Shown here one piece after another: positions 3,138 through 27,900 of a stretch of 43,028 nt of DNA. Source of the DNA: a virus; IMG/VR virus record IMGVR_UViG_3300034012_002969, positions 1 to 43,028 of that record, one strand, 5' to 3'. How positions within the stretch are numbered: position 1 is the first letter of the stretch; the number at the start of each line of letters is the position of its first letter. The translations under genes and the position numbers were made by a program. The notes below the pieces were generated by a model. It saw only the letters and a program-made list of their open reading frames with translations, did no database searches and had not been told where the DNA came from.

Positions 3138-5369
3138 ATGTCCGCTTCGATGAACAGTCCGGTTCCGCCCCCCACCGCGCCCATGATGGGGGGCTTGATG
3201 GACCCTGGTGCGGTAGGCACCGTGTCTTCCACGGGCGGGCTCCTGCGTGTGATTTCGCCGGCTGCGCTCAACGCCCAGGAACAGATCGACATGGCCGAGC
3301 GCGCTCGCGCGAAGCTGGAGGCGCGGCTGGAGCCAGCCATGGACGATCTGGCGGCGTTCATCCGCCGGCAGTTCGACACGATGAAGAACCATCGCAACGG
3401 CGCTTCAGGATGGACCAACCGGCTGCTGTCCGCGCTGCGGATGTTCAACGGCGAATACGAGCCGGAGAAGCTGACAGCGATTCGAGAATATGGCGGCAGC
3501 GAGGTCTACGCCCGGATCGTGGCGGTGAAGTGCCGGGCATCCTCCGCGATGCTGCGGGACATCTACCTGAACGCGGTGAATCGTCCGTGGGACATCGAGC
3601 CGACGCCGGTTCCGACGCTGCCCGACGAGGCGGCTGGCGCGGTCGAAGCCTTGATGACTGCCGAGGTGGGGGTGGCTGCGGACGGCGCTGCGCAGGGGCT
3701 GACTGACCCCGAGACGGGCATGCCTGTGATGCCCCCGACCGAGCAGGACATGGCGGCGCGCAAGCTGGAACTCGACGCGCTGGTGGAGCAAGGCCGAATC
3801 AAGAAGGCGCGTGCGGAGGCCGACGAGGCCCGTAAGCATCTCGACGACATGCTGGTGGAGGGCGGATTCTATAAGGCCCTGGCCGAGTTCCTGACGGACC
3901 TGCCGCTGTTCCCCTTCGCCTGCATCCGTGGCCCCATCGTCTACATGACGAACACGATCACCTGGGAGAAGCAGACGAGCGGCCCGGCCAAGCTGGTGAA
4001 GAAGCCGGTGGCCCGGATGTTCTGGAAGCGGGTGAGCCCGTTCGACATCTGGTGGTCGCCCGGCGCGGCCACGCCCGAATCCGCCGACTTCATCTTTCGG
4101 GACCGGAAGTCCCGCGCAGAACTGAACGCCATGCTGGATGTTCCCGGCTACCGGAAGGACCAGATTCGTCTCGTGCTGGAACACTACTCGCGGGGACATA
4201 CGGAATCGCCCGACACGGCGGATGCGACTCGGGCCGATCTGGAGAGTCGGGAAGACCCTCAGATGAACGATTCCGGCATGTATGACGTGCTGGAGTATCA
4301 TGGGTCGATTCCCGGTCGGCTGCTTCGTCTCTGGGGCATGTCCACCAAGGATGTGCCCGACGAGGTGTTGGACTACGCGGTTCAGCTTTGGATGATCGGG
4401 CAATACGTCATCAAGGTGCAGCTTTCGCCCAGCCCGCGCGAGCGCCCGCCGTTCTTCATCACCAGCTACGACAAGGTGCCCGGCACCATGGTGGGCAACG
4501 CCGTGCCCGACATGCTGGCGGACATTCAGGATGTCGGCAACGCCGCGCTGCGGGCGACCGTGAACAACATGGCAATGTCCTCCGGCCCGCAGGTGGCCAT
4601 CAACGAATCGCTGCTCGATGCGTCGGAGAACACCGACCGCGTGTGGCCCTGGCGGGTATGGCGATTCTCGCCCCGCCCTGGAGTCCAGGCGTCGGACCCG
4701 GTGAAGTTCTTCCAGCCGGCTTCGAACGCGCAGCAGTTTCTCGCGGTCTACGAGAAGGTGACGCAGATCGGAGATGAAATCAGCGCGATTCCTCGCTACA
4801 CCACCGGCAGCGAGCGCATGGGTGGCGCAGGCCGCACGGCGAGCGGGCTGTCGATGCTCATGGGCAACGCCACGAAGATGCTCCAGACCGTCGCGAGCAA
4901 CGTGGACACGGATATCTTCGAGCCGCTGCTCCAGTATCTCTACGACATCGTGATGATGACCGACACGACCGGCAAGCTGCGCGGCGACGAGCGAATCATG
5001 GTGAAGGGTGTATCCGTGGCCATGCAGCGCGAGTTGGAGCGCCAGCGCCAGATCGAACTTCTCCAGGCCACAGCGAACCCCACCGACCTTGAAATCGTCG
5101 GCATGGCCGGGCGCGGGACGCTTCTCCGTGCCGTCACCAGCGGGGTTGGGCTGGATGGAGAATCCATCGTCCCGACCAACGACGAACTGCGCAAGCGAGA
5201 GCAGGCCAAAGTTGCCGCGATGATGCGGGTCGGCGCAGGTAGCGCCATGTCAGGAATCTCGCCCGAGGAAGGCGCCCAGACACAGGGAGCCCAGCGCGGC
5301 GGCGAGAACACAGGACCACGCGCGATTCAGGGTCCGCGCGTGAATCTCCAGCAACAGGCCCCGGAGTGA
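3138..5369 (+). CDS. Portal (head-tail connector) protein, 743 aa
   Basis: The portal forms the dodecameric ring at one vertex through which DNA is packaged and ejected. Recognition rests on length typical of podovirus portals (about 700-750 aa), position at the head of the structural genes, and a conserved stretch near residues 560-590 (GRTASGLSMLMGNATKML) seen in portal families of large podovirus-like phages. Residues about 220-265 are a charged helical hairpin. The C-terminal 35 residues are Gln/Gly-rich and probably disordered. I chose ATG 3138 (MSASMNSP) because it has AAAGG in front; the frame is open back to 2955 but that would overlap terS on the other strand. The next gene starts six bases after the stop. 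Confidence 0.9.
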   Translation: MSASMNSPVPPPTAPMMGGLMDPGAVGTVSSTGGLLRVISPAALNAQEQIDMAERARAKLEARLEPAMDDLAAFIRRQFDTMKNHRNGASGWTNRLLSALRMFNGEYEPEKLTAIREYGGSEVYARIVAVKCRASSAMLRDIYLNAVNRPWDIEPTPVPTLPDEAAGAVEALMTAEVGVAADGAAQGLTDPETGMPVMPPTEQDMAARKLELDALVEQGRIKKARAEADEARKHLDDMLVEGGFYKALAEFLTDLPLFPFACIRGPIVYMTNTITWEKQTSGPAKLVKKPVARMFWKRVSPFDIWWSPGAATPESADFIFRDRKSRAELNAMLDVPGYRKDQIRLVLEHYSRGHTESPDTADATRADLESREDPQMNDSGMYDVLEYHGSIPGRLLRLWGMSTKDVPDEVLDYAVQLWMIGQYVIKVQLSPSPRERPPFFITSYDKVPGTMVGNAVPDMLADIQDVGNAALRATVNNMAMSSGPQVAINESLLDASENTDRVWPWRVWRFSPRPGVQASDPVKFFQPASNAQQFLAVYEKVTQIGDEISAIPRYTTGSERMGGAGRTASGLSMLMGNATKMLQTVASNVDTDIFEPLLQYLYDIVMMTDTTGKLRGDERIMVKGVSVAMQRELERQRQIELLQATANPTDLEIVGMAGRGTLLRAVTSGVGLDGESIVPTNDELRKREQAKVAAMMRVGAGSAMSGISPEEGAQTQGAQRGGENTGPRAIQGPRVNLQQQAPE

Positions 5370-5813: not shown

Positions 5814-6976
5814 GTGATTCCCAGACCGCCGAGGCCACCATCCCGCGTATGGGGATGGGGACCGACACCCCGCTCGCTGTCGTTGCGGCGGCTGATCGGG
5901 CCGACCAGATGATTCGGGAGTTGGCGGCGCGCGCCGCTGCTCCCGCAACCCCGCCCGCCGAGGTCCCACAGGGGGAGGCTCCGGCGAGCACCGAGGTGGC
6001 GAACGCCGCCCCGGCCAAGGCAGGGGGCGAAGGGATGCAGCCCGCGCCGGAGCCAATGGCTCTGGCATCGCCCCCTGCCGAGGCGTCCTCTGACGCCATG
6101 ACGCTGCTGCGTGCCGAAGTTGACCGGCTGACGCAGGAACTGCGGACGTGGCGCGGGCGCTACGAGGCGGAACTGCCGCGTGAGCGGGAACTCCGCGTCG
6201 CCATGGAGCGTCAGCTTGCGGAGGCGTCCGAGCGCCTGAAGGCTCTGGACACAGTGGCGACTCCGGCAGTCCCTGCCTACACGCCGCTGACCGATTCCGA
6301 AATCGAGCAGTATGGCGAGGACATGTTCGCCATGGTCGAACGCTTCCTCATGCCGAAGGTCGAGGCGCGGCTCAACGCGCTGCTGACGGCGACGGAGGCG
6401 CGATTCGCCCGTGTGGAGGGGAATCTGGGCACGACCAACGCCAAGGTCCAGAAGACCGAGCAGGACATGTTCTACGACCGCCTCACCGAACGCATGCCGG
6501 CGTGGCGTGATGTGGATGCGGACCCCGCGTTCACTGCATGGCTGGAGGAACAGGACGAACTTTTTGGCGAGCCGCGCAAAAATGCGCTTTACAAGCGCGC
6601 CACGAATCGTGATGATGCCGGCGTCGTCAAGGTCTTTGAGGCGTTCCTGAACCAGCGGGGCGCCTCGGGGTCGCGGAATACGGCAGCGGCGCCGAGCACG
6701 CCGGCACCGGGCACGGGGGCACAGCCCACCGCCCCGGCAGTCCAGGCAGCCCCGGCACCCTCGCTGGCCGACTTCGCCGCCCCTGGTAGGCCCAGCACCG
6801 CGCCAAACCCCGCTTCTGGCGGGGCGCCCGGTGGAAAGCGCAACTGGTCGCTCGCCGAGATTCGCCAGTTCTACGTTGATCTGCGGAAAGGCGTCTATGC
6901 TGGACGGGATGGCGAGTCATCCCAGATCGAGCGGGACATCGCCGCTGCGCAGCGGGAGGGGCGCGTCACATCCTGA
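5810..6976 (+). CDS. Putative capsid scaffolding protein, 388 aa
   Basis: Lies directly upstream of the major capsid gene, the normal place for a scaffold. Composition fits: a Pro/Ala-rich low-complexity N-terminus (to about 85), a charged coiled-coil region (about 95-145, rich in Glu/Arg with heptad-like Leu spacing), a helical middle section to about 280, a Pro/Ala-rich linker (285-340) and a short basic C-terminal helix (KRNWSLAEIRQFYVDLRKG, about 343-361), which resembles the capsid-binding helix at the end of P22-type scaffolds. Such proteins direct shell assembly around the portal and leave or are degraded before DNA enters. No protease gene is visible next to it, so exit rather than cleavage is more likely. 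Function is inferred from place and architecture. Confidence 0.75.
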   Translation: MSDSQTAEATIPRMGMGTDTPLAVVAAADRADQMIRELAARAAAPATPPAEVPQGEAPASTEVANAAPAKAGGEGMQPAPEPMALASPPAEASSDAMTLLRAEVDRLTQELRTWRGRYEAELPRERELRVAMERQLAEASERLKALDTVATPAVPAYTPLTDSEIEQYGEDMFAMVERFLMPKVEARLNALLTATEARFARVEGNLGTTNAKVQKTEQDMFYDRLTERMPAWRDVDADPAFTAWLEEQDELFGEPRKNALYKRATNRDDAGVVKVFEAFLNQRGASGSRNTAAAPSTPAPGTGAQPTAPAVQAAPAPSLADFAAPGRPSTAPNPASGGAPGGKRNWSLAEIRQFYVDLRKGVYAGRDGESSQIERDIAAAQREGRVTS

Positions 6977-9102: not shown

Positions 9103-10296
9103 GTGACCTACACTTTCGCCAACAACGCCGCGTCCACCCTCGCCAGCACGTGTTCCATCGTGGCCACGAGTCTGGCTGTGCAGACTGGGCACGGCTCGCG
9201 CTTCCCCAGCCCGACCGGGGATCAGCGCGTCGCGATCACGGTGCAGAACGGCTCCGCCTTCGAAATCATGGAAGTGACAGCCCGTGCCGGTGACATCCTG
9301 ACCGTCGAACGCGCGAAGGATGGGACCATCGCCCAGACGTGGCTCGCGGGTTCCTCGGTGGACATCCGCCTGCCCAGGATCGTGCTGGATAGCTTCGCCC
9401 AGAAGGGGAGCGTCCTGGCCCTGGCCGGGGGCACGATGGTGGGTCCGGTCCTGCTGGATGACACCACGTCGGTGTCCACTCCGCCGCTGGCGTTCGACGG
9501 CGATTCCAATACGGGCCTCGGCCACCCCGCGCCTGACACCGTGTCGCTTGTGACTTCAGGCAACGAGCGGTTCCGCGCGACGAACGCCGGGGTCGAGGCG
9601 CTGGTGCCGATCATCGCGCCTGCCGGAGACAAGACGGCGCCGGGGGTGACGTTCTCGGGGGACGGCGACACCGGCGTGTTCCGCCCCTCGGCCAACGAAG
9701 TCGGAATCACTGTTGGCGGCACCTACATCGTCAAGTTCGATTCCGCCGGCCAGACCACGATGGGCACCCAGACCGTCGAGGGCGTGTTCCAGTCGAAGTT
9801 CTCCAGCAAAAATGTCTTTGAGACGAGCAGCAAGGGAATCTTGGTTACTGGGGAAACCCACACCACGAGCCATTCCACGGTCGGCGGAAACTTTGGGGTG
9901 GGCGGTGGCGTGTCTGTCGCGGCGTCCATCGAGGCGGGGGGCTATGTGAAGGCCACGACCTATCTTGAGGCGGGCAAGGCGGGTGTGTCGGGGAATCAAG
10001 CTGTCGTCTATTCCCAGTTCCCGCTCACTGCGAACGCCAACGGGACGATGACGCTTCCGAACGGTGTTGTGGAGAAATGGGGTGGTGGGGCGACGGCGGA
10101 TGGTGAGGTGGATGTCACCTTTCCGACCCCATTCCCGACCGCAGTGTGGAACATCCACCTGACGGTGGGGGCGGGAACCACCAAACACAACGGATTCGGC
10201 ACTCTAGTTGTGGGCACCATTTCCCCGACCGGATTCAAGGTTTGGGGTAAGGCGGGCGAGAGCCTTGCGTTCTACTACCGGGCAATCGGTAACTGA
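9103..10296 (+). CDS. Tail fibre protein with gp53-like C-terminal domain, 397 aa
   Basis: An adsorption appendage. Residues 1-105 form a beta-rich N-terminal domain of the kind that attaches fibres to the virion (AITVQNGSAFEIMEVTARAG, DILTVERAKDGT). The middle holds two copies of the fibre motif F-x-G-D-x-(N/D)-T-G, at about residues 129 and 184 (AFDGDSNTGLGHPAPD and TFSGDGDTGVFRPSAN), each followed by a strand pair. The last 90 residues (LPNGVVEKWGGG ... VTFPTPFPTAVWNIHLTVG ... AFYYRAIGN) match the gp53-like tail-fibre C-terminal domain, expected to trimerise and carry receptor contacts. The GTG start is 5 bases after AGGAATC. There is no template/variable repeat or reverse transcriptase, so no diversity-generating system is attached to it here. 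Confidence 0.85.
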   Translation: MTYTFANNAASTLASTCSIVATSLAVQTGHGSRFPSPTGDQRVAITVQNGSAFEIMEVTARAGDILTVERAKDGTIAQTWLAGSSVDIRLPRIVLDSFAQKGSVLALAGGTMVGPVLLDDTTSVSTPPLAFDGDSNTGLGHPAPDTVSLVTSGNERFRATNAGVEALVPIIAPAGDKTAPGVTFSGDGDTGVFRPSANEVGITVGGTYIVKFDSAGQTTMGTQTVEGVFQSKFSSKNVFETSSKGILVTGETHTTSHSTVGGNFGVGGGVSVAASIEAGGYVKATTYLEAGKAGVSGNQAVVYSQFPLTANANGTMTLPNGVVEKWGGGATADGEVDVTFPTPFPTAVWNIHLTVGAGTTKHNGFGTLVVGTISPTGFKVWGKAGESLAFYYRAIGN

Positions 10297-10320: not shown

Positions 10321-10743
10321 ATGGGCCGTTCTCAGCGACTGCTCCGGTATCGTGAAGGCGTCGATTCCGAGGGCTACACCGCCTACGAGCGCGACGAGGC
10401 GTCGCTTCGGACGCATGCCCAGCAGCAGGCGTCGGCCACGCTGCGCGGGCGCAACGCCGGCCCGGCCTGCACCACGGTCCCCACGCCCACCGGCACGCCG
10501 ACTGTGGGGCAGACGCTCACCTGCGGCAACGGTGTCTGGGCGGGGACCACTGGCGGCGGCTCGATTACCTACGCCCGACAGTGGTTCCGTGGGAACATGG
10601 AGATTGCCGGCGCGACGGGCACAACCCGTGTGCTGGCGGCGGCTGACGCCGGGCACATCCTCCAGTGCCGCCTCACGGCCACCGACGCGAATGGCCGCAC
10701 GGTCCAGTTCTCGAACCGCACTGCCGTCATCGCGGCAGCCTAA
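10321..10743 (+). CDS. Small Ig-like domain virion protein, 140 aa
   Basis: Residues about 48-138 form one bacterial Ig-like repeat with the usual signposts: PTGTPTVGQTLTCGNGVW, ARQWFRGNMEIAGATG, and ADAGHILQCRLTATDANGRT. Such domains decorate capsids and tails and bind weakly to cell-surface sugars. The N-terminal 45 residues are charged and helical (YREGVDSEGYTAYERDEASL) and may be the anchor. Three cysteines are present (residues 50, 68, 120). It sits between the fibre and another small structural gene, so a decoration or fibre-associated role is likely; which particle part it coats is unknown. Confidence 0.7.
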   Translation: MGRSQRLLRYREGVDSEGYTAYERDEASLRTHAQQQASATLRGRNAGPACTTVPTPTGTPTVGQTLTCGNGVWAGTTGGGSITYARQWFRGNMEIAGATGTTRVLAAADAGHILQCRLTATDANGRTVQFSNRTAVIAAA

Positions 10744-10757
10744 CGGAGATTCTTTCC

Positions 10758-11318
10758 ATGAAGCTGACCTTCCTGTCCCCGCTGTTCGCTCCGCTGTTCG
10801 GCGTGCGGATGAAGGAGCGCCTGCTGCGCTCGATCATCGACGGCGCCAAGGCCCCCACGATGGTGTTCGATGTCGAGTGCATCGGCCCTGATGGCAAGGT
10901 GAAGTGGCGGGAATCCGCCAAGAACCTTGTTACCAACCAGGGGCGGGTGGACATCCTCGACAAATACCTCAAGGGCGCCACCTACACCGCTTCGTGGTTC
11001 CTGATGCTGAAGGGCACGGGCTCCGTCGCCAACGCCGACACTCTGGCCTCCAACGCCGGCTGGGACGAGGTGACGCCCTATTCGGGCAACCGCCCGGCGA
11101 TCACCTGGGGCACCACCACTGGCACCACGACGGCCACCAACACCGCCACGGCGGTGTCCATCACGATCAACGCCACGGCGACGGTCGCGGGTGCCGGCTG
11201 CTGCACCGTGAACACCGGCACGTCGGGGATTCTCTACAACGTCTCGGACTTCGCCGCGTCGCGTTCGGTGGCTTCCGGCGACACGCTCAACGTCACGCCG
11301 ACGATCACGATGTCTTGA
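10758..11318 (+). CDS. Putative minor structural protein, Thr/Ala-rich, 186 aa
   Basis: Starts MKLTFLSPLFAPLFG; the ATG has ACGGAG about 10 bases upstream. An in-frame start at 10665 would overlap the previous gene by 79 bases and is less likely. Residues 25-85 (VFDVECIGPDGKVKWRESAK, NLVTNQGRVDILDKYLKGA, SWFLMLKGTG) belong to a recurrent phage family of unknown role usually found among tail/appendage genes. Residues 110-186 are Thr/Ala/Gly-rich beta sequence (TTTGTTTATNTATAVSITIN) suggesting a fibrous or beta-solenoid shaft. Likely a virion component; the exact position is not evident. Confidence 0.65.
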   Translation: MKLTFLSPLFAPLFGVRMKERLLRSIIDGAKAPTMVFDVECIGPDGKVKWRESAKNLVTNQGRVDILDKYLKGATYTASWFLMLKGTGSVANADTLASNAGWDEVTPYSGNRPAITWGTTTGTTTATNTATAVSITINATATVAGAGCCTVNTGTSGILYNVSDFAASRSVASGDTLNVTPTITMS

Positions 11319-12266: not shown

Positions 12267-14111
12267 ATGGCTTCGCGGGTGCTTGCCACATCAGGCGGCG
12301 ACCATACGACGCTGGCAGACTGGGCGTCATGGGCGACGAATCCGGCGAACTTCGGTGGTGCTGCTAACTGGGATGACCCCACCAATGGTGGGGACCAAAT
12401 TCTCCGTGTCGCGAACAGCACGTTCACGTTCACATCTTCTCAGGTGTTGGACCTCGATGCATTAGTTACGGCGACGTATTATAAAGCCACGGTTCGCCCG
12501 AACACGGAGGGCAGCGTAACGTATGTCGGGGCTAAGGTTGCGGCGGATGGCACACTGAATCTGAGCAGCGTCGATAAGAATCCACGGTTCAGCAATTCCG
12601 GCTATAGCCATGCCTACATGGTGGACCTCTCGTCCTGCACTGCCGTGGAGTGGCGATTCGAGGGACTCGCGTTTATTCTGGCGAATCACCGGACGGGGTG
12701 TCTGCGATTTGCCAGCGGCGCTACTCGGCATGTCTACATCGACCGCTGCATCTTTGCAGACCGAACGGGCGGCGGCGAGCCAGTATTCAACGGTGGACCT
12801 ACTGGGGCGGCTGCGGGCCGAATCCATCTGCGTTCTTGTGTTGTGGATTGCCTTGATAACGTCAATGGGATGGTGTTTTGGCAGGCATGCAGCGGCGCCT
12901 TCATTCTCGGTAATACGATTCGTATTGGGTCAGGAGGCACAACGTTTCTTACTGGGGCTGGTAGCCAGATCGCGGTCAAGGCATACGGAAACGCGATCTA
13001 CCATACGTCGGACGGTTCGAGCGCCTTCACAGGGACAGGCATCAGCGCAGCGGATTTCCCGACCAACTACAACGTCTCGAACCTCACCGGCACGAACTGG
13101 ACCAGCGACTTCGATAGTGCCGGCGATGTGAACAACAGCACCATCGCGAACATGTTCGTGAGTTCCACGAATCAATACCCAAAGAGCGCGGGGGCGCTAC
13201 ATGGTGTTGTCTCGTGGGCCGGGCTGCCTTCCGATGTGCAGGCAGTGTGGCCGACGCTTGATTTCATCGGTAACACCGTTACGCAATCCGGTTCGTTCTC
13301 GGCTGGCGCCTTCTATGTCGCCGGCACAACCACATACAACGAAACGATTTCGGACGGCGCCACCAACGACCACTCGTTCACCATCGCAGGCACCTTCGTG
13401 CCTACCCTATCCGACGCAACAACCGGAGCAGAATCGTTCCTGGCTGGGTTGTCCATCTCCATGTCGCTGAGCGATTCTGTTACCAGTGCGGAATCGGTGA
13501 GTGCCGCAGTGACCTTTGGTCCGGTTCTCTCGGAGGTTGGGGCGGCTGGGGAGTCGCACGCAACAACCGCTGTGATGCAGCCCACGACATCCGATTCCGG
13601 CACGGCTGGGGAATCCTACGCGACAACGGTGGCGTTTGCGGCGACCATCGTGGATTCCGGCGCGGGTGCCGAGTCGTTCGGCGCTGCGGCAACGCTGATC
13701 GCCACACTGACTGACGCAGGGTCCGGTGGAGAATCATTCATCGGCGGCTTGCTGCTGTCTGAAGGTTTTACGGATTCCGCAACTGCTGCCGAGTCGCTGA
13801 CCTACAGCCTTATCTTTGGGGCGGTCCTGTCGGATTCGTCGCTGGTAGGAGAGTCGTTTGGCGCGGCGGCGACGTTTGCAGCCAATTTCCTCGACGCGCT
13901 GTCGGCTGGGGATTCCTTCGTTGGGGGGATGGTATTCTCCGAGACGATCACTGCCGGCGGCACGACGGGCGAATCGTTCGCGGACCTCTTGGCGCTCTAC
14001 GGCATCTTCAGTGTCCTAACCGTCGTATCCACGGTGGGAAGGATCGAACTGGTGTCCTCGGGGCCTGCCAGTGTATTCTCGGACGTGACAGAGCAGCCGT
14101 CGCGCGCCTAG
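12267..14111 (+). CDS. Putative beta-helix appendage protein with eleven 20-residue C-terminal repeats, 614 aa
   Basis: Residues 1-350 look like a right-handed beta-helix typical of spike or fibre proteins: short strands, many Asn/Ser/Thr/Gly, and rung-like phrases such as HVYIDRCIFADRTGGG, RIHLRSCVVDCLDNVNG and GAFILGNTIRIGSGG. Residues 361-580 are eleven tandem repeats of exactly 20 residues, described separately. The C-terminal 35 residues are a hydrophobic strand region (LYGIFSVLTVVSTVGRIELV). The gene is visibly less G+C-rich than the capsid genes and uses more A/T-ending codons, suggesting separate origin. GAGTC directly abuts the ATG. Probably a receptor-binding or decorating appendage; enzymatic residues are not evident. 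Confidence 0.7.
   Translation: MASRVLATSGGDHTTLADWASWATNPANFGGAANWDDPTNGGDQILRVANSTFTFTSSQVLDLDALVTATYYKATVRPNTEGSVTYVGAKVAADGTLNLSSVDKNPRFSNSGYSHAYMVDLSSCTAVEWRFEGLAFILANHRTGCLRFASGATRHVYIDRCIFADRTGGGEPVFNGGPTGAAAGRIHLRSCVVDCLDNVNGMVFWQACSGAFILGNTIRIGSGGTTFLTGAGSQIAVKAYGNAIYHTSDGSSAFTGTGISAADFPTNYNVSNLTGTNWTSDFDSAGDVNNSTIANMFVSSTNQYPKSAGALHGVVSWAGLPSDVQAVWPTLDFIGNTVTQSGSFSAGAFYVAGTTTYNETISDGATNDHSFTIAGTFVPTLSDATTGAESFLAGLSISMSLSDSVTSAESVSAAVTFGPVLSEVGAAGESHATTAVMQPTTSDSGTAGESYATTVAFAATIVDSGAGAESFGAAATLIATLTDAGSGGESFIGGLLLSEGFTDSATAAESLTYSLIFGAVLSDSSLVGESFGAAATFAANFLDALSAGDSFVGGMVFSETITAGGTTGESFADLLALYGIFSVLTVVSTVGRIELVSSGPASVFSDVTEQPSRA
13347..14006 (+). repeat. Eleven tandem 60-bp (20-residue) coding repeats
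   Basis: The translated units align without a single insertion: ISDGATNDHSFTIAGTFVPT, LSDATTGAESFLAGLSISMS, LSDSVTSAESVSAAVTFGPV, LSEVGAAGESHATTAVMQPT and so on to ITAGGTTGES-F. The consensus is [LIF]-[ST]-D-x(3,4)-[AG]-E-S-[FY] followed by ten mostly small/hydrophobic residues. Nucleotide identity between units is low while the protein period is exact, so the array is old and kept by selection on structure rather than freshly expanded. Alternating polar/hydrophobic residues suggest each unit adds one strand pair or solenoid coil. Confidence 0.9.
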
Positions 14112-14120
14112 GAGTAGCCC

Positions 14121-14426
14121 ATGTCCGGTTCGAGTGAGGAATCCCTGGTTGTAGGAGGCTCCGCCCGCCTCGTCGCGCGGCTGACCGACTACAGCGGCGC
14201 CCCTGTGTCGCCTGAAGGTATTCGGCTTCTGGTGCTGCGCCCCAATACCGGAGTCAGCTTCCTCCAGAGCGTGGCTATCGTGGACGGCACGGCTGTGGGG
14301 GTCATCGAACTCGATACCCCAGGCATGTGGCGTTTCCGGTTTGAGACAACGGCGCCGCCTGTGGTAGCATACGAAGGCCATTTCTCGGTCGCACGCCGGA
14401 TGGTTCCCCCGCTGGCCGATTCTTGA
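14121..14426 (+). CDS. Stand-alone copy of the tailspike N-terminal Ig-like module, 101 aa
   Basis: Nearly the whole protein aligns with residues 1-100 of the adjacent tailspike and with the gene at 17721-18053. Shared landmarks are RL-x-A-x-LTD-x-x-G-x-PVS, V/I-R-LLVL-x-P, G-x-W-x-(Y/F)-RFE-x-T and (K/R)-R-x-VPPL at the end. The pattern suggests a small beta-sandwich. Since the tailspike keeps this module at its virion-proximal end, the free copy may be an adaptor that pairs with it or fills related attachment sites. The start has GGAG about 8 bases upstream. Relationship to the tailspike is seen directly; function is inferred. Confidence 0.8.
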   Translation: MSGSSEESLVVGGSARLVARLTDYSGAPVSPEGIRLLVLRPNTGVSFLQSVAIVDGTAVGVIELDTPGMWRFRFETTAPPVVAYEGHFSVARRMVPPLADS

Positions 14427-14444
14427 CCGTTAAGGAATCCTGCA

Positions 14445-17400
14445 ATGTCTGGTGCTACCGGCGCGCAGTATATCGAAGGCTCCACGGCTACCTTTCGCGC
14501 TCGCCTTCTGGACATCGACGGCAACCCTGTGGACCCATCCAACGTCCGGATGCTCGTGCTTGCCCCTGACGCCACGGAAAGCTATCTGGCGACTACCAGC
14601 CTGGATGGGGGCAGCATCATCGGCACGGTGCATCTGACCCGACACGGGACGTGGCGCTACCGCTTCGAAAGCACGATTGAGCCCTACGCCGTGTTCGAGG
14701 AATACTTCTCGGTCCAGAAGCGCGGGGTGCCGCCGCTGCCCGGCCCCGGTGGGAGCGCGCCGACTCTTGCGACCAACTGGCGAATCGGGGAACTGCCGGC
14801 GACCTCGCCGCTGCAACTCACCGACCAGATCGCCGTCAGCCGGGGAGCGCCCGCGACGACGTATCGGGGCACGGTGGGCGACATCGTGTCGCTGGTGCAG
14901 ACGCAGAACGTCTCTGACGTGTATATCACGCCGGAGCAGTTCGGCGCCATCGGGGACGGCGAGAGCCATCCCGCCTTCGAAGTGCTCGGCGTGGACACCC
15001 TGGAAGAACTTCAGGAGTGGAACAACGGCATGTATGCGTTCGCTGATTCCATCGGGAATGAGATGGATTGGCTCGGGCTTCAGGCCGCGCTTCGTGCCGG
15101 CGGAGAGGTGCGTGGAACTCCCGGTGCGGTCTACGTGGCGAACAAGACCATCGCCGTGTGGAACGGGCATGTGCAGTGGGACGGTCGCGGGTGCGTATGG
15201 TCCTTCCAGGGCCAGGAAGAAGTGCTCGATGACGGGAGCAATCTGGTCACGAATCCCAGCTTCAACAGCGGCGCGACTGGATGGCAGAACACGATTCTGG
15301 CGCCGCGTGTGGATGTTGTGTTTGCTGGGGGCAAGGCAACCTTCACCGATCCGCCCGTGACGTTCACGCCTGGGGAATCGCACTTCGGGCAGTTCGGCCA
15401 GCAGATGACGATTCCGCCCGGCAAGTGGACAGTGCGGGCGCGGGTGAAGCTGTCGGAAGGCGCCAGCCAGGGGTATTGGGGTGCGCGCTTGCTTGGCATG
15501 GGGTTCTTCAAGGACGGCCCCGGTCTGGGTGGGTGGGCGTGGCCCGATCCACTCTACGCCATTTCCTCGGCGGGCGCGACGGTGGCCTCTCCCTTCGATG
15601 GGTGGATGGAGTTTGACATCGAGGCGCCGGAAGAAGTGACGGCGTGGCTGACGTTCTCCGGATTCAACTGCGACTGGGAGGTGCAGGAAGTCCGCTTGAG
15701 CCCGTTCCTGATGAATTTCTCGGTGTGGTGCTCTGGGGACTTCGTTTCCGGCAGGCAGTATGACGAGACAGAACTGCGGAACTTCAAGATCGTCGGCCCG
15801 GCGCAGCGCGATTGGTGGGGCGACGAACGGTATGGGTTCCAGAACCCCGAGTTCGCAGGACCGTTCATCTCCGGATTCCTCCACAAGAGTTTCGCGGGGG
15901 AGAGCGCACGTGCGAATCTGGTGAACGTGCATATCCGCGAGTTTTTCCGGGGGGTGCATTTCTCGGATCAGGCGTTCCTGATTCGTCATACGGCTGTCAC
16001 CATTGGTGCGTGCGGGGAGTGCGTCTACTTCCAGCCGGCAGTGCGCAACGCGGGTGAGAACCTACGATTCACCGACTGCATCCTTTTCAACTCCGGTGTC
16101 GCCGTTCATGCAGCCGGCGGTGCCGAGTGGAACTTCGTCGGCACGTCCATCGACTTCTGCCGCGTCCTCGTGCGCGGGCGGAAGGGTGCGGTCCTGAACT
16201 TCACCAACCACCATTTCGAGTTCAACGCTTCCGAGACGCGAATCTGGTTTTCGACGGTGGATTCGCCGCTGGGCTGGAATCGCACCATCACTGGGGGAAC
16301 TTCCGGCGCCACGGCAAAGGTGCTGATTTCGGATCGCCAGGGGAACCCTTGGGCGGAGCGCACCCCCTCCGTTGTCGTTGAGGTGCTATCCGGCACGTTC
16401 CTGCATGGCGAGACTGTCACGGATGGTGTTGGCGGCTCTGCTGTGGTGGATGGCGGGGTTGCCTGGGGCGAGCCTCTGGTCGATCTGGACGGCGGCTCCT
16501 ACATGATCATGCCGAGTGGTGAATGGCTCCAGTCCGGTGCCGGGCACCGTGGGGGCCTGCATGCGGTTCGAGTGAACACCACCCAGGATACGGTGGCTTT
16601 TGGTGATGTGTGGGCCTACAACTTGCTCACCGCGTCCGGAGACTGGGGGGTTGGTGCCGGGCGAATCGTGTTCAACAACCACCTGGGGCCGGGCAATCCG
16701 CTGTTCCCGACGATGCTGCTGCGGAACCAGCAAATGGATGCGTTCGCTGGGAATGGTGGGATTGCCGGCACGGGCACATGGGAGGACCAGGGCTTCTCGG
16801 GGCCGGAGGATGAAATTGGAATCGACTTCAGCGCACATTCGCCCGGCGGGGCCGAGGCGCCTTCTTCGCGCGGGTTGATTCCGTGGGAGCAAGAGGTCCG
16901 TGTGGATCGCGCCGTGTTCCGCACCGCAGGCAACGCATCGCTGGCGCTGGACATCAATGAAGTATATACGGGCGGCACCGAACTGCGCGTCTTCATCCCG
17001 GTGCGCGCGGGGAAAATCGTGCTGCCGGAGTTCTGGTTCTCCAAGCCCGAAGTGAAGGCGAATCGGACGCATGGCCCGTTTACGTCGGGGCTGCCGCTTG
17101 CGGGCGACACAATCTATGTGAACATCTCCGAGGGTAAGACCCTCGCGATCATCGAAGACAAGCACGTGCAGTGGCTTGGTGGCAACGGCCCGCGCCCTGG
17201 CTGGAGTGTGACGCTGGCGAGCGTTACCGGGAACCCCGGCGGTGTGGCCAACGCCGTGTGGAACGCGACGCACGCGGTCGTGGAGCGGCTGGACGCCTTT
17301 CGATTCACCATCGACCTTGGAGTCGGCAACGCCGCGACCTCCACTGTGGCGAACGCGGGTGGGGCAGCGGTCGAGGCGACCTACACCCAGACCAATGTGC

Positions 17401-17720
17401 TGATCTATGTCCGCAATTTCTGGGTCCGCCGCACGTGGACTGATTCCTATGGACGACCTGTTCTCTCCCAGGCGCTATATCAGGGCGAAAAGAACATCAC
17501 CATCAACCATGCAGCCCACCCATGGGAGATATGGAACTACGCGACGTGGTATTCGGAGGCGGTTGTCCCCGACACCCCGAACGAACGGGTTGCTCGCGGT
17601 CGTGCCCCCGAGTGGGCAACGCACTACATGCTGGTGCTGAACTGGCAGAACATTCGCGAGTGCGACCCGGTGGCGTGTCCGAACCTCTACCTCACCGACT
17701 TCTATGCCAATGTAGTGTAG
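14445..17720 (+). CDS. Tailspike protein (beta-helix, probable polysaccharide-binding/degrading), 1091 aa
   Basis: Residues 1-100: the Ig-like module shared with its two neighbours. Residues 110-155: linker (GELPATSPLQLTDQIAVSRG) common in phage fibres. Residues about 159-172 (VYITPEQFGAIGDG) are the classic entry to a pectate-lyase-like beta-helix spike. Residues about 265-410 look like a carbohydrate-binding beta-sandwich (NLVTNPSFNSGATGW opening). Helix-like rungs follow, then a G-G-T-S-G-A-T-A motif domain near 615-675 and a beta-rich C-terminus. Such trimers bind and often cleave capsule or O-antigen. I cannot point to specific catalytic residues. AAGGA lies about 8 bases before the ATG. 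The next gene starts directly after the stop. Confidence 0.88.
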   Translation: MSGATGAQYIEGSTATFRARLLDIDGNPVDPSNVRMLVLAPDATESYLATTSLDGGSIIGTVHLTRHGTWRYRFESTIEPYAVFEEYFSVQKRGVPPLPGPGGSAPTLATNWRIGELPATSPLQLTDQIAVSRGAPATTYRGTVGDIVSLVQTQNVSDVYITPEQFGAIGDGESHPAFEVLGVDTLEELQEWNNGMYAFADSIGNEMDWLGLQAALRAGGEVRGTPGAVYVANKTIAVWNGHVQWDGRGCVWSFQGQEEVLDDGSNLVTNPSFNSGATGWQNTILAPRVDVVFAGGKATFTDPPVTFTPGESHFGQFGQQMTIPPGKWTVRARVKLSEGASQGYWGARLLGMGFFKDGPGLGGWAWPDPLYAISSAGATVASPFDGWMEFDIEAPEEVTAWLTFSGFNCDWEVQEVRLSPFLMNFSVWCSGDFVSGRQYDETELRNFKIVGPAQRDWWGDERYGFQNPEFAGPFISGFLHKSFAGESARANLVNVHIREFFRGVHFSDQAFLIRHTAVTIGACGECVYFQPAVRNAGENLRFTDCILFNSGVAVHAAGGAEWNFVGTSIDFCRVLVRGRKGAVLNFTNHHFEFNASETRIWFSTVDSPLGWNRTITGGTSGATAKVLISDRQGNPWAERTPSVVVEVLSGTFLHGETVTDGVGGSAVVDGGVAWGEPLVDLDGGSYMIMPSGEWLQSGAGHRGGLHAVRVNTTQDTVAFGDVWAYNLLTASGDWGVGAGRIVFNNHLGPGNPLFPTMLLRNQQMDAFAGNGGIAGTGTWEDQGFSGPEDEIGIDFSAHSPGGAEAPSSRGLIPWEQEVRVDRAVFRTAGNASLALDINEVYTGGTELRVFIPVRAGKIVLPEFWFSKPEVKANRTHGPFTSGLPLAGDTIYVNISEGKTLAIIEDKHVQWLGGNGPRPGWSVTLASVTGNPGGVANAVWNATHAVVERLDAFRFTIDLGVGNAATSTVANAGGAAVEATYTQTNVLIYVRNFWVRRTWTDSYGRPVLSQALYQGEKNITINHAAHPWEIWNYATWYSEAVVPDTPNERVARGRAPEWATHYMLVLNWQNIRECDPVACPNLYLTDFYANVV

Positions 17721-18053
17721 ATGATGGCTGCGATTCCCAAAGGCCAGAGCGCAGAGCGTCCGCCGGTAGACTCCTACCATGAGGGGGGCTCGCTACGCCT
17801 CGGCGCGACGTTGACGGACCACGCTGGGAATCCAGTCTCGGCAGTGTCCGTGCGCTTGCTCGTTGTGCGTCCGGATGGCAGCGTGCGGCAAGTGCCTGTG
17901 CGAAATGATGGGGCGCGGTGTGTGGGGATTGTCGCGCTGACGCTTCCCGGCACATGGCATTACCGTTTCGAGAACACCCCGATTCCGAAGACCGCTTACG
18001 AATCCACCTTCTACGTCAGCAAGCGGCTCGTGCCGCCCCTGGAGCAGCCATGA
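17721..18053 (+). CDS. Second stand-alone copy of the tailspike N-terminal module, 110 aa
   Basis: Third member of the local family: LTDHAGNPVSAVSVRLLVVRPD, then VALTLPGTWHYRFENT and FYVSKRLVPPLEQP align with the ends of the other two copies. It differs by a 20-residue charged leader (MMAAIPKGQSAERPPVDSYH). ATG 17721 follows the tailspike stop with no gap, and the stop overlaps the endolysin start by 4 bases (ATGA), so all three are probably translated in series. As with the first free copy, an adaptor or capping role at the spike base is the best guess. Confidence 0.8.
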   Translation: MMAAIPKGQSAERPPVDSYHEGGSLRLGATLTDHAGNPVSAVSVRLLVVRPDGSVRQVPVRNDGARCVGIVALTLPGTWHYRFENTPIPKTAYESTFYVSKRLVPPLEQP

Positions 18054-18640
18054 ACGCCCCCTACACCAAGCTGGTCGAAGCCGACTACCAAGAAGCCGCG
18101 CAGAAGCTGGGGTGCTCCATCGCGGCGGTGAAGGCTGTAGCGCACGTCGAGAGTGCCGGTTCCGGGTTTCTGCCGGATGGGCGCCCGACGATTCTCTATG
18201 AAGCGCATGTGTTCTACCGGCTGACAAAGGGCCGGTTCCCTGCTGCCCTGGATCGCTTCGGCGTCCCGCTCGCGGTGCCGAGGTGGAACCGCAGCCTGTA
18301 TGGGGCCTCCGGCGCTCACCAGTATACCCGCCTGGAGGATGCCAAGGCTCTGGCTCCCGACGAGGCCCAGATGTCGTGCTCCTGGGGCATATTTCAGGTG
18401 ATGGGCTTCAACTGGGGCATGCTCCGCTACAACAGCCTGGGCGACTTCCTACACTGCATGCTGTCGGCGTCGGGGCAGCTTGATGGATTCGTCCGTTTCA
18501 TCCGAATCAATGGCCTTGCGAAACCTTTGATCGACCTCAATTGGGCAGAATTTGCCCGGCGCTATAATGGTCCTGACTATGCAAAGAACGCATATGATGC
18601 AAAAATGGCGGCTGCCTACACCACGTTCGCACGAAAATAG
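18050..18640 (+). CDS. Endolysin, N-acetylmuramidase family (DUF3380-type), 196 aa
   Basis: Cuts peptidoglycan glycan strands at the end of infection. AVKAVAHVESAGSGFLPDGR with Glu34, then PTILYEAHVFYRLTKG, is the conserved core of the N-acetylmuramidase domain (PF11860); SWGIFQVMGFNW and the C-terminal FARRYNGPDYAKNAYDAKMA are also typical. The domain fills the protein and there is no separate cell-wall-binding domain. Glu34 is the likely catalytic acid. No N-terminal signal or anchor segment, so it needs a holin for release. ATG 18050 is chosen because it overlaps the previous stop (ATGA). Confidence 0.93.
   Translation: MNAPYTKLVEADYQEAAQKLGCSIAAVKAVAHVESAGSGFLPDGRPTILYEAHVFYRLTKGRFPAALDRFGVPLAVPRWNRSLYGASGAHQYTRLEDAKALAPDEAQMSCSWGIFQVMGFNWGMLRYNSLGDFLHCMLSASGQLDGFVRFIRINGLAKPLIDLNWAEFARRYNGPDYAKNAYDAKMAAAYTTFARK
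18541..18568 (+). promoter_or_regulatory. Possible sigma70-type promoter inside endolysin, ahead of the holin gene
   Basis: A perfect TATAAT (18563-18568) stands 16 bases after TTGGGC (18541-18546), a partial -35. It lies in an A/T-richer patch at the 3' end of the endolysin gene, about 85 bases before the holin-like start. A perfect -10 is rare in this G+C-rich sequence. It could give separate expression of the lysis genes, but the -35 is weak and the match may be chance. Confidence 0.3.
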
Positions 18641-19217: not shown

Positions 19218-21083
19218 ATGACCGGCATGCGGATTGCCAATTTCGGCGGAATGATTCCGTTGGTGTCGTCGCGGCTTCTGCCCGACAACATGGCGTCCGC
19301 TGCCGTGAATACCCATCTGCGTTCGGGAGAACTGCGGGGCGTGCGCCAGCCGCAGCTTCTCCATGACTTCGTGAGCGGAGGCCCCTTCCGCAAGGCGTAT
19401 CGGATTCCGGACCCCACGGACCCCGACGAGCCGGTATGGGTCGGCCTGCTGTCGCGGCACGGCAAGGTGCATGCCAACCCCCTGGTCAATGACGCCTTCA
19501 ACCGATTCCTCAAGCTGGACGAGAATCAGCCCGGCACTGCTGCGCCGCTGGAAGTGAACAGCCTGGAGCGCGTGAAGGATGCGGACCCGTGGCTGCTGCT
19601 GGGTGTGCCGCCCCCAGCTATCGCCCCCACGCTGACGCCCGTTGGGGGCGCCACGCTGACCGAGACACGCGCATACGTCTACACATATGTGAATCTGTTT
19701 GGGGAAGAAGGCCCGCCGTCCCCGCCAGTGTCCGCCAGCGCGTTCCATGATGCGTCGTGGAATCTGTCAGCCCTGGTTGATCCCGCCTTCGCCGCCGACC
19801 ACGGCATCACCAAGATGCGAATCTACCGCACCATCAGCGGCACGCAGGGGGCGGTGTTCTACCGCGTCGCGGAGCAGCTTGTGAATGTGGCAACCTACAG
19901 CGACACGCGGCTCAGTTCGGTGGTGGTGTCGGAAGGTGTGATTCTCGAATCCCAGACCTGGGCACCGCCGGATGACGTGGAGGGTATCGTGGAGATGCCC
20001 AACGGATTCTTCGTGGCCTGGGCCGGGAAGGACATCTTCTTCAGCGAGCCCTACCGCCCTTGGGCTTGGCCCCCGCAGTATGTCGTCTCGACCGCTTCGC
20101 GGATCATCGGCTGTGGGGTGGTGGACCAGACTCTGGTTGTGCTGACCGAATCCGCCCCGGTGCTGTATGTGGGTGCGCGCCCCGACTCCATGCAGGCGGT
20201 GAAGTCGGCGCTGGTGGACCCCTGCATCGAGGCGCGATCCATCGTCCAAGCGCCCGAGGGCGTCTACTACGCCTCGCGCAATGGCCTGCAACTTGTCACC
20301 CCTGCCGGCACCAACAGCGTCACCCGGCAGGCCATCGGCCGCGATGAATGGAACTCGTCCTTCGTGCCGCGAATCAAAGCGGCGGTGTCTTTCGATTCGC
20401 AATACCTCGCCCTGGACGCCGCCGGTGGGGGGTTCTGCTTCGATCCGCGCGACATGAAGGCCGGCATCTCGATGCTGGGCAACATGGAGCCGATGGACAA
20501 CATCTGGACCGACCCGTGGACTTCCGAGGCCCACATGATCGTCGGCAACAAGGTGTATGCCTGGGGGAACCCGACTTCCGGATTCGTCACGGCGGAATGG
20601 GCCAGCAAGGATTTCCACTTCAGCAAGCCGCTCAACTTCGGCGCGCTGTTGGTGTTGGTCGATCCGAACTACATCACGGATTCCTCCACGGACGACATCT
20701 TCACCGAGCCGGTGCCCTATGTCGGGGCGCCGTGGCCCGATTACGCCAGCATCGTCGGCTACAACCTCGTCAACGGCGCCGCCATCAACGGAGCGCCGAC
20801 GTGGGGCGATCCCCCACCGGACAATCCGACCGCCCCGGTGTGGCCCTTCTGGCCCGGCGTGGAGTCCGCCCCTGCCACCTTTGAACTGCCGGAGGGTGCG
20901 GAGATTCTGCTGTCGCTCTACGCGGACAATGGGTTGGTCTGGCAGGGCTACGTCGAGAACGGAATCGTCTACCGCCCCACCTCCGGGTTCAAGGCGGAAG
21001 TCTGGCGGATTCACCTGAAGACGCGAGTCCCGATCCTGAGCGTCCAGATTGCCGAGACAGCCAAGGAACTCGAACGTGTTTAA
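19218..21083 (+). CDS. Putative tail nozzle/tubular protein (T7 gp12-like role), 621 aa
   Basis: Starts MTGMRIANFGGMIPLVSSRL followed by LPDNMASAAVNTHLRSGEL, a pattern I associate with large tail-tube proteins of short-tailed phages. Residues about 140-235 contain a fibronectin-like stretch (TETRAYVYTYVNLFGEEGPP; KMRIYRTISGTQGAVFYRVA). Then come blade-like beta repeats (ESQTWAPPDDVEGIVEMPNG, IFFSEPYRPWAWP, VVLTESAPVLYVG, GVYYASRNGLQLVTP) that suggest a propeller as in T7 gp12. The C-terminus carries one more beta domain. The start has AAGGAG 7-8 bases upstream. Assignment is by architecture and position before the internal virion proteins. Confidence 0.65.
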   Translation: MTGMRIANFGGMIPLVSSRLLPDNMASAAVNTHLRSGELRGVRQPQLLHDFVSGGPFRKAYRIPDPTDPDEPVWVGLLSRHGKVHANPLVNDAFNRFLKLDENQPGTAAPLEVNSLERVKDADPWLLLGVPPPAIAPTLTPVGGATLTETRAYVYTYVNLFGEEGPPSPPVSASAFHDASWNLSALVDPAFAADHGITKMRIYRTISGTQGAVFYRVAEQLVNVATYSDTRLSSVVVSEGVILESQTWAPPDDVEGIVEMPNGFFVAWAGKDIFFSEPYRPWAWPPQYVVSTASRIIGCGVVDQTLVVLTESAPVLYVGARPDSMQAVKSALVDPCIEARSIVQAPEGVYYASRNGLQLVTPAGTNSVTRQAIGRDEWNSSFVPRIKAAVSFDSQYLALDAAGGGFCFDPRDMKAGISMLGNMEPMDNIWTDPWTSEAHMIVGNKVYAWGNPTSGFVTAEWASKDFHFSKPLNFGALLVLVDPNYITDSSTDDIFTEPVPYVGAPWPDYASIVGYNLVNGAAINGAPTWGDPPPDNPTAPVWPFWPGVESAPATFELPEGAEILLSLYADNGLVWQGYVENGIVYRPTSGFKAEVWRIHLKTRVPILSVQIAETAKELERV

Positions 21084-24984: not shown

Positions 24985-27900
24985 ATGGTCGAGACAGTCA
25001 TTCCGGATACCGACCTCACGGACTCGGTAGCCGACGAGAATCGGCCTGCGCCGCAACGTGAGATTCCGGAGGGGGCCATTCGGCGTATCGTGGGGAGCAG
25101 CCCCACGGTCATCCCCGACATTCCGGACCCGCAGCCGCGCTCCTACATGGGCGACGCCGCCCGAGGGTTCGCCTCCAGCGCGGTCGGCACAGCGGGGGCG
25201 GCTGCCGGCTTCCTCGAATACATCATGGGCTCCGGCGGTGCGCTGACCAAGGCGCGGGAAGGACTCGGCGCCACGAGTGAATCGCTGGCGCAGGGCATGT
25301 CGCCGCAGATGCAAACCGCGCTTGGGCGCGAGTTCACCACGATGCCGCAGTGGCTCGGCGGCGACTCCGACAAGTCCGCGTGGGAATCGTTCGGCAGCTT
25401 CCTCGGTTCCGCGTCGGCGCAGGCCGTCGCCATGTCCGGATCGCTGGTGTCCGCCGTGCCTGCCATCATCGCGGGTGCGATGTCCGGACCTTACGCCGTG
25501 CCTGCTGCCGTCGTGGTGGCTGCCGCAACGGGCGGTGCCCTGGGCGGCGGCTCGGTGTGGAACGATGTCGCCACCGAGTTTCAGAAGCTGGATGAATCGG
25601 ATCGGATGAAGAATCCGGTCTACGCGGGCCTGCGCCAACAGGGACTCGACCCGGCAACCGCCATCGACCGCACGGTGCGTGAGGTGGCCTCCGGCTATGT
25701 GAACGCCGCGACTGCTGTATCCGGTGCAGTGAACGCTGCGACCGGCCCGTTCCTGGGGAGGCTGGGTGCTGGCACGCTGAAGGGAGGCGTGCTGCGCGGT
25801 GCGGGCACCGGATTCGTCACCGAGGGCAGCGAGGAACTGATCGACGAAGGCTCCACGCAGCACTTCTCCGCCAGCGCCATCGAGCGCCTGACGGGCAAGC
25901 CCTACGACTTCAAGGAGGTGGCCGAGGGCGCGGTGCGTGGCCTGATCGGCGGCGGTGTGACCGGCGCGGGGATGGGTGCTCTTGGTGGCATGCTGTCGCG
26001 CGAGCCCCCTGCCCCCGGTGCCGTCGATCCCGCGATTCTGGCAGCGACTCAGAATCAAACGCCCAGCACCGGCACCGCGTCCCAGCCCAGCGCCCCGGTG
26101 GACCCCGCCGTTGCCGCCGCGATGGCTGCGAAGAACGCCACGACGCCGCCTGCGGGGGGCATGCCCGGCACGCCGGGTAGCACGCCCGGTAGTGAAGAAC
26201 CCGTGCCTCCAGGCTACGGCCCGGCGCCCCGGCCCATCATTGCCATGGGGCCGACTTCCTTCGAACCGGACCTCCTGTCTGGCCAGATGGGGCCGCGCAG
26301 TGCCGGCACCGACGCCATGGGCCAGAACATCCTCCCGCTGGAGGGCATCGGCGTCCCCCAGCCGGGGGCACCTGCCGCCGCGCCGTCGTTCATGGACTTC
26401 GTGATGGGGACCGTCGCGGACCCGCGCCAGGAGGCCATGCCGTTCGGCGCCGCGATCCCTGGAACCCCCCGCCCGCAGACCGTGGCGCCCGGCCAGGAGA
26501 GCGCGGCGCTGCCCGGCGAACTGCCAGGGCAAGGGGGTGGCCCCAACACTGCACAGCCGGCTCCTGCGGCGCCCGTAGCGCCCGTGACTGAGACGCCTGC
26601 GGTGAAGCCGAAGCGTGCCAAGAAGGTGAAGGCGGCTGCGCCCGCCCCTGCGGGGTCCACGGCTGTGGTGCCCACATCCACACCCCCTGAGTCCGTATCG
26701 GGCGCTATCACCACTGCGGAGCCCGTGCTGGAGGGTGAGGTCATCCCGCCCGAGGAAAACCATTCGAAGCTGAAGGCTGGCGGCAAGAAGCGGTTGGCCG
26801 ACGCCGTGAAGCAGGCGCGCGATTCACTGCGGGCCAGCACCAAGCTGGCCAGCGAGAAAATCTTTGGCCCGGAGACGGAGCAGGCATCCGACGCCACGGT
26901 ATCAGCCCTGGTCGATGAAATCCTGGCCGACGCGCAGCGGGAAATTGGCGACCCGAGCACGAAGTCCGTGCGTGAACTGATGACGCTGATTCTGGAACGC
27001 AGCACGAGTCGGCTGCGGACCACGCTGGAAGAACGAGCCGCCGCGACCACGAACGCAGAAACGGAGTTCGAAGGCGCGCAGGACACCACTGCCCGGCGCG
27101 TAAGCAACAAGAACATCATGGATGCCGCAGCCGGCGACCGCGACGCCACGGAGAAGGTGCGGGAGCACATCAAGCGAATCGACAAGAAGCGCCTACCGGA
27201 GTTCTACAAGCGTGTGTCCAAGGCGCTTGCCAGCACCGACACGGTGAATCTGGACTGGTTCAATGAACTGAAGGCGGCAGTGGAGGGCGCATCGCGTGGC
27301 GGCAGCGCCGAGCAACGTGCCAAGCGTGCCGAGGTGGTGGAGGCTACGCGCGAGAATCTGGCTCAGCAGGCCGAAGCGGACAAGGCCCGCTTTGCGGAAC
27401 AGCGTGCCGCCGTCATGGCTGGCGTAGGCGCCTCCACACCTTCCTATACCGGCACGAAGACCAAGGAGCAGATCGTCGAGCGATTCCGTGAGGCGCAGCG
27501 CGCCCTCGCTCGTGCCCTTGGCGTCGAGCCCACCCAGGTGCCGGCGAAGGCAACCAAGGAAGCACGGGAGCAGTTTGATCAGCGGCAGGCTAAGCGCCTG
27601 CGCACGTTGATGCTGCAAAAGATCGGCGCCTCGAAGGACGACGATTCCGACGCAGCACAGTTGGTCGAGTTCTTCTCGGATGCGGCAGAGTTGGATGCCA
27701 ACGCCCCGCGCGAAATGCTTCAGAACTATCAGTCCTCCGAGGCGCTGGCGCGTGCCGGCGACGTAAAGTCGGCGCGTTCGCTTCTGGCAGAGACGGCAGC
27801 CATCGAGAACAGTTCCACCGGAACCGCCCTGGCACCGGGCGAAGAAGGTATCACCGAGGAACGCGATCCCGAGGCGCTGAACCAGACTCGAATCGACGAT

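Follow-up and report, generated by a model that had tools for sequence, protein, structure and literature searches.

Free paralogues of a tailspike's N-terminal module in a predicted Bcep22-like podovirus

The stretch analysed here, called the window, comprises the 43,028 bases of a single IMG/VR virus record (IMGVR_UViG_3300034012_002969), in which a predicted tailspike gene is flanked by two small genes whose products are paralogues of the N-terminus of the spike. The spike-borne copy is referred to as module N, and the free copies as module A (upstream) and module C (downstream). We see about an even chance that a free docking adaptor was duplicated and that one copy became the built-in anchor of the tailspike, with two free paralogues being kept. 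Fibre-tail adaptors are often encoded by separate genes, and tailspike anchors are usually part of the spike; this virus, in which homologous copies occur both free and fused next to each other, shows a plausible step from a separate adaptor to a built-in anchor and gives a direct handle on how phages acquire new spikes. The features concerned are the following:

12267..14111, + strand: repeat-rich protein of 614 amino acids with C-terminal repeats of about 20 residues (autocorrelation z-score 8.7)
14121..14426, + strand: free module A, 101 amino acids, paralogue of spike residues 1-98
14445..14738, + strand: module N, spike residues 1-98, ending in VPPL, delimited by alignment with A and C
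14739..14924, + strand: linker from module N to the tailspike body, spike residues 99-160 (the LKA1 body alignment starts at residue 161)
14445..17720, + strand: tailspike, 1091 amino acids, stop codon TAG, body matching known tailspikes
17718..17723, + strand: TAG of the spike abutting the ATG of C in the same frame, no ribosome-binding site seen
17721..18053, + strand: free module C, 110 amino acids, paralogue of the spike N-terminus, phrog_17896 match at E 2.3e-5

Three paralogues of one module

An initial annotation of this DNA had proposed that both free proteins align with the first 100 or so residues of the spike, down to a common ending. The open reading frames (ORFs) of A, the spike and C were found at the positions given there, and A and C align with the N-terminal 100 or so residues of the spike at 40-50% identity and z-scores of 35-37. 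Local alignment of A with the spike yields 40 identical residues in 98 columns (score 210, z 37, top shuffle 63); the corresponding values are 41 of 93 for the spike and C (score 179, z 35, top shuffle 47) and 44 of 88 for A and C (score 196, z 36, top shuffle 50), with 1000 shuffles per pair and shuffle means of 26-27. Profile comparison, which had been named beforehand as the place where the likeness might fail, shows a real alignment, and a hidden Markov model (HMM) built without window sequences finds all three copies. The proposed ending was likewise recovered: A, N and C all close in (K/R)R-x-V-P-P-L, a motif present in none of the 19 other family rows of the alignment. C carries about 10 additional residues near its start. 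A six-frame search of the window revealed no fourth copy, and the record holds exactly three.

The DNA of the three copies is not alike (local DNA scores of 24-27), and codon agreement among them is 54-59% at positions 1 and 2 and 33-39% at position 3. Because the DNA has diverged and agreement at position 3 is low compared with positions 1 and 2, the duplications are old and the protein has been conserved. In the tree, A, N and C form one clade with a support of 100/100, and the end branches measure 0.42 for C, 0.55 for A and 0.96 for the spike copy. The profile of phrog_17896, which with 230 positions is longer than the free copies A and C, matches C through its first 80 or so positions and weakly matches N (E 0.021); A has no match to it at E 1.

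Residues 161-317 of the spike and their neighbours, from about residue 101, match the tailspikes LKA1 gp49, D3 orf27 and ZCEC5, with values of 2e-11, 5e-10 and 3e-9, respectively, in a three-sequence comparison; the records of these tailspikes in the phage collection reach E 1e-5 to 3e-3 against the spike. Residues 455-588 match tailspikes of Serratia phages, and there are weak PHROG tail matches and no Pfam match. By its body sequence, the protein is predicted to be a pectate-lyase-type podovirus tailspike. The N-terminal parts of the LKA1, D3 and ZCEC5 tailspikes are not alike to the module. Since related spike bodies carry unrelated N-termini, module N is assigned to the anchor slot of the tailspike. 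A second metagenome contig has the same locus and differs at 2 of 15,397 bases; being from the same virus, it adds no independent support. The sole differences, at 16826 and 16852, lie 26 bases apart in the distal half of the spike; one is silent (D794) and the other changes A803 to V.

The junctions between these genes are tight. AGGAG at 14110-14114 precedes the start of A and AAGGA precedes the spike, no ribosome-binding site was seen before C, and the start of the endolysin gene overlaps the stop codon of C by 4 nucleotides. From 12267 to 18053, the repeat gene, A, the spike and C share one reading frame and are parted only by stops. Recoding of TAG (as Q) was considered for this single-frame run and rejected: TAG is the stop codon in 6 of the 26 gene models, including the spike and the repeat gene, and conserved genes fit standard stops. 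Recoding is unlikely because TAG also ends other genes.

The module family and its repeat-rich neighbour

Using the window profile alone, one distant locus, L002, was found, and a search based on L002 returned 26 loci, to which L124, L125 and Microcystis phage Mae-JY24 were later added. After removal of duplicates, 23 copies outside the window remained (20 plus L124, L125 and Mae-JY24, the last with its copy at 8989-9258 of L126); L006, L012, L013, L017, L018, L019, L024, L027, L123 and L127 duplicate other loci and do not enter the count, and L001, L003-L005, L032, L033 and L122 belong to the window virus. All 23 outside copies are free proteins of about 89-112 residues. One locus, L026, encodes two free modules about 0.8 kb apart (4748-5038 and 5874-6164). 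The HMM without window rows finds C at E 2.1e-6, A at E 3.8e-6 and the spike copy at E 3.3e-4, with the best reversed decoy at E 2.7; by these E-values, the free copies fit the family better than the spike copy does, and the family profile scores the free window copies at 23.5 and 22.7 bits and the spike copy at 16.5 bits. A mid-domain segment of the TTYVYGTD type is missing from all three window copies; it is also missing from the family members L125 and L126 and does not define the whole family. A candidate at 4601-4966 of L128 was left outside all counts, as it shows tblastn likeness, yet has no profile match at E 0.001; it comes after a short repeat-like ORF (z 6.4).

Matches elsewhere are few. 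Searches of annotated phages with A, with C, with the L002, L016 and L031 modules and with the repeat gene 12267-14111 gave no match; the L014 module matches two Microcystis records. Scans of GTDB genomes returned no relatives of the module, NCBIfam gave nothing useful for it, and the module profile has no match in the whole records of five named Bcep22-like phages. A sequence search of solved structures with the three window modules returned nothing below E 0.7.

Most outside copies share a particular neighbour. The repeat-rich gene of the window ends 9 nucleotides before A, and the last 200 residues of its product reach a z-score of 10.3 at period 20. For each copy, the periodicity of the gene ending next to the module start was compared with shuffles, using a threshold of z 4. 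In the first set of 22 copies (20 outside copies, A and C), z exceeded 4 in 16, namely in 15 of the 20 outside copies and in A; C, which follows the spike, fell below the threshold. L124 (z 13.1) and L125 (z 20.9) are also preceded by repeat genes, which brings the count to 17 of 22 outside copies; Mae-JY24, whose annotated preceding gene has 51 residues and a z-score of 2.7, was left out of the count, and in L026 the gene before each module is below the threshold. The 17 repeat-paired loci include close kin (L002/L007/L008; L014/L015/L020; L029-L031) and do not represent 17 independent events. As a control, z exceeded 4 in 20 of 142 genes of at least 150 amino acids in the module loci; of the 20, 13 are accounted for by the upstream genes or by antisense shadows of them, which leaves 7 of 129. 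The repeats upstream of modules are 14-22 residues long, and the spacing between the module and its upstream gene is -8 to +3 nucleotides in the 17 outside loci listed. A further protein travels with the module:

10665..11318, + strand: phrog_8123-type protein (E 7.8e-22)

Its family occurs in 6 of 22 module-bearing sequences, the window included, versus 0 of the 79 backbone relatives introduced below. Given the pairing, the repeat protein of the window is the likely partner of module A.

The predicted backbone and the Gp77 slot

The window virus is, judged from its predicted proteins, a Bcep22-like podovirus (short-tailed phage), because it combines an SU10-type portal (PF23899, E 4.9e-16), a phrog_511 virion protein and a DarB-like giant protein, which matches phrog_10089 at E 4.5e-13. 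The nearest named portal is that of Rhizobium phage RHph_TM27A (49%). The protein encoded at 24985-32340 has 2451 amino acids with LPD39 and DarB-like matches, far below the 4515 amino acids of the JC1 DarB-like protein. Three further genes of the region are of note:

9103..10296, + strand: conserved backbone tail fibre with a separate anchor (Gp53-like_C)
18050..18640, + strand: N-acetylmuramidase endolysin (PF11860, E 2.5e-56)
19218..21083, + strand: backbone virion protein, phrog_511 (internal virion protein, E 1.1e-104)

A phrog_511 alignment was used to scan for relatives, and the best 80 of 318 were kept; one of these loci is the second contig of the window virus, which leaves 79 backbone relatives. 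The tail fibre has tblastn matches in 34 of the 79, mostly to its N-terminal 100 or so residues in the 12 listed, and a 140-residue protein encoded at 10321-10743, which has Hoc-like immunoglobulin (Ig) matches, has tblastn matches in 8 of them. The 79 relatives have no tblastn match at 1e-4 to any of the seven products encoded between 10665 and 18053: the phrog_8123 protein, two small proteins, the repeat protein, A, the spike and C. The closest relatives are L040 and L041 (54%), and in L041 a fibre gene is directly followed by the endolysin gene with no spike between them. As these products are unmatched in the 79 relatives and L041 lacks a spike, the region around the spike resembles a block acquired by this lineage.

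In BcepIL02, POI1126 and TM27A, the gene order is a repeat-rich gene, a gene of 92-94 residues and a tail fibre or fibre-sized gene. The small slot gene matches PF23148, the fibre-tail adaptor gp77 of podophage GP4, in all four proteins scanned, and the one of these that was compared with the solved GP4 chain 8jou also matched. Across 86 backbone sequences (the window, the 79 relatives and six stretches of the five named phages), the Gp77 profile matches 40, with one match per locus; the window and its eleven nearest relatives (L040-L049, L051) have none. The gene preceding Gp77 is repeat-rich in 23 of 39 tested loci, compared with 38 of 448 genes overall in the control. The repeats before Gp77 mostly have a period of 20-26, e.g., in L063, L084 and L107. 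In the window, the order at 12267, 14121 and 14445 is repeat gene, A and spike, which places A, and not C, in the same slot. Small Ig-like proteins encoded immediately after genes with repeats of 14-22 residues form a recurrent pair in many unrelated phages, and the pairing is found in Gp77 loci, too. Gp77 was also considered as a sequence relative of the module and rejected, since an hhalign comparison between 22 rows of the module and 32 of Gp77 gave a probability of 0.2% and E 0.24; the Gp77 alignment was built without L108 and L113 (Gp77 in a long open frame), L099 (cut), the named-phage rows and the minus-strand rows. The likeness to Gp77 is accordingly drawn as an analogy in work and place, not as membership of one family.

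Both proteins have Ig-like models. The AlphaFold2 (AF2) model of A has a predicted local distance difference test (pLDDT) score of 88 and forms a seven-stranded, Ig-like beta-sandwich; the Gp77 model, that of L082, has a pLDDT of 97 and is also seven-stranded and Ig-like. Compared with solved structures, the Gp77 model matches 8jou (Z 12.9) and the Milano collar protein gp13 (Z 11.2). Matches to the collar protein of phages Milano and 7-7-1 (Z 10.5-11.2) hint that fibre adaptors and collars may share an origin. The structure matches of A are generic Ig-like and filamin-like domains only, with a best Z of 9.5 and nothing in the PDB at E 0.001 or better; in BFVD, its matches are small phage proteins that stand free, plus a few entries of BppU type.

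Competing readings and known systems

In the reading that we favour, the ancestor would be a single free fibre-docking adaptor, working like GP4 gp77 and paired with a repeat-rich virion protein. After duplication of this adaptor within the lineage of the window virus, one copy would have been fused to the body of a pectate-lyase-type tailspike gained by horizontal transfer, giving a spike that carries its adaptor with it. The 614-residue repeat protein may still be docked at the neck or tail by free A. Free C would be made by reinitiation and in proportion to the spike, because it shows no ribosome-binding site and begins immediately behind the spike stop; it probably sits beside the spike in the same docking ring or serves another partner. 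The VPPL tail could be part of a shared docking or trimer surface and not a mere linker, because all three copies keep it, though two of the proteins end there. The docking role suggested by the initial annotation gains support, by analogy, from the anchor slot of N and the Gp77-type slot of A. The exchangeable spikes proposed alongside it do not: a second module-fused spike was looked for among the relatives, and none was found.

Several observations weigh against the adaptor reading. The module was not found in any of the 79 backbone relatives with either the window or the wide profiles, although some contigs extend only slightly upstream, and absence is not proof for each of them; since none of the 79 shows it, the slot argument is one of gene order. 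PF23148 has no match at E 1 to A, the spike or C in Pfam, and the structure matches listed for A do not include 8jou, a lack that excludes nothing. The Gp77 parallel is one of place and fold class, and the shared Ig-like fold is weak evidence. In JC1 virions, the Gp77 homologue gp55 and the fibre gp56 were detected by mass spectrometry; gp54, encoded by the gene before gp55, does not appear in the virion list as given in that report (PMC9144972). JC1 gp54 is by position the homologue of the repeat-rich BcepIL02 gp56, and its absence from the list therefore speaks against a docked repeat protein. Finally, the neighbours in several free-module loci are head or connector genes, among them those for phrog_578 head closure, head morphogenesis and major head proteins, not fibres, and the module family may be neck or head parts.

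This last point leads to the alternative that the module decorates the neck or head, its fusion to the spike being incidental and of little consequence for docking. The head-type neighbours of the relatives, the resemblance of the Gp77 fold to Milano collar gp13 and the commonness of small Ig-like phage proteins are all consistent with it; however, the module stands at the extreme N-terminus of the tailspike, in the anchor slot of related spikes, and we regard this alternative as rather unlikely.

A similarly doubtful possibility is that the free copies and the spike module compete for or share docking sites, as caps or in mixed trimers, and that their ratio sets the number of spikes per virion. 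Three paralogues with the same end motif lie in one gene run, and C starts on the spike stop codon without a visible ribosome-binding site, which would tie its output to that of the spike; however, an identity of 40-50% is low for mixed trimers, and on the contigs L026/L027 the fetched DNA contains two free copies but none that is fused, so that the presence of two copies does not require a spike. The more specific proposal of a common docking ring for the free copies and the spike copy, in which translation-coupled C fixes the ratio of spikes to capped or otherwise-used sites, appears still less probable. If true, such a three-paralogue docking set would reveal how an adaptor that was once separate turns into the built-in anchor of a receptor-binding protein.

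The initial annotation had also suggested that A and C are remnants, i.e., anchors left behind after the loss of former spike bodies. The order of module, spike and module fits this suggestion, as does the retention in all three copies of the VPPL end, which leads into the linker in the spike. It is nevertheless made less likely by the free state of all 23 relatives, by the closer fit to the family profile and the shorter branches, i.e., slower evolution, of the free copies, and by the conservation of the protein while third codon positions are saturated; moreover, a ribosome-binding site of its own precedes A, and C fits between the spike and endolysin genes with no gap. We consider the suggestion very unlikely. 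Read-through of the TAG at 17718, which would give some spikes a module at both ends, is highly improbable: C does follow in frame directly after the TAG with 110 open codons, but TAG also terminates genes elsewhere (6 of the 26 gene models end in it), reinitiation at the ATG immediately behind it is simpler, and the frame agreement has a chance of 1/3.

In the literature searched, free paralogues of the N-terminus of a spike were not described. The T7 gp17-like anchors of podovirus receptor-binding proteins in Klebsiella phages likewise form an N-terminal unit before an exchangeable beta-helical body, but the sections covering them do not describe these anchors as also existing as free paralogues beside the spike (PMC6872550). 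The separate adapter gp37 of K1-5 is likewise a non-spike protein that links receptor-binding proteins to the tail; according to the part of the text concerned, it contains a T4gp10-like domain and is bound via short spike peptides (PMC6872550). Unlike in K1-5, the adaptor-like free copies in the window are homologous to the N-terminus of the spike itself. In phage A-1(L), the neck fibre anchor gp82N is described as a small N-terminal domain trimer that docks a flexible bead chain near the neck; it is part of the fibre protein itself, and the likeness to the module is drawn from this description (PMC10966104). Also close in arrangement is Gp77 (GP4 gp77, BcepIL02 gp57, JC1 gp55), which, like A, has about 92-100 residues and is encoded between repeat-rich and fibre genes. 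Unlike the module, to which it has no sequence relation, Gp77 occurs once per locus, whereas the window holds three copies, one of them fused to the spike.

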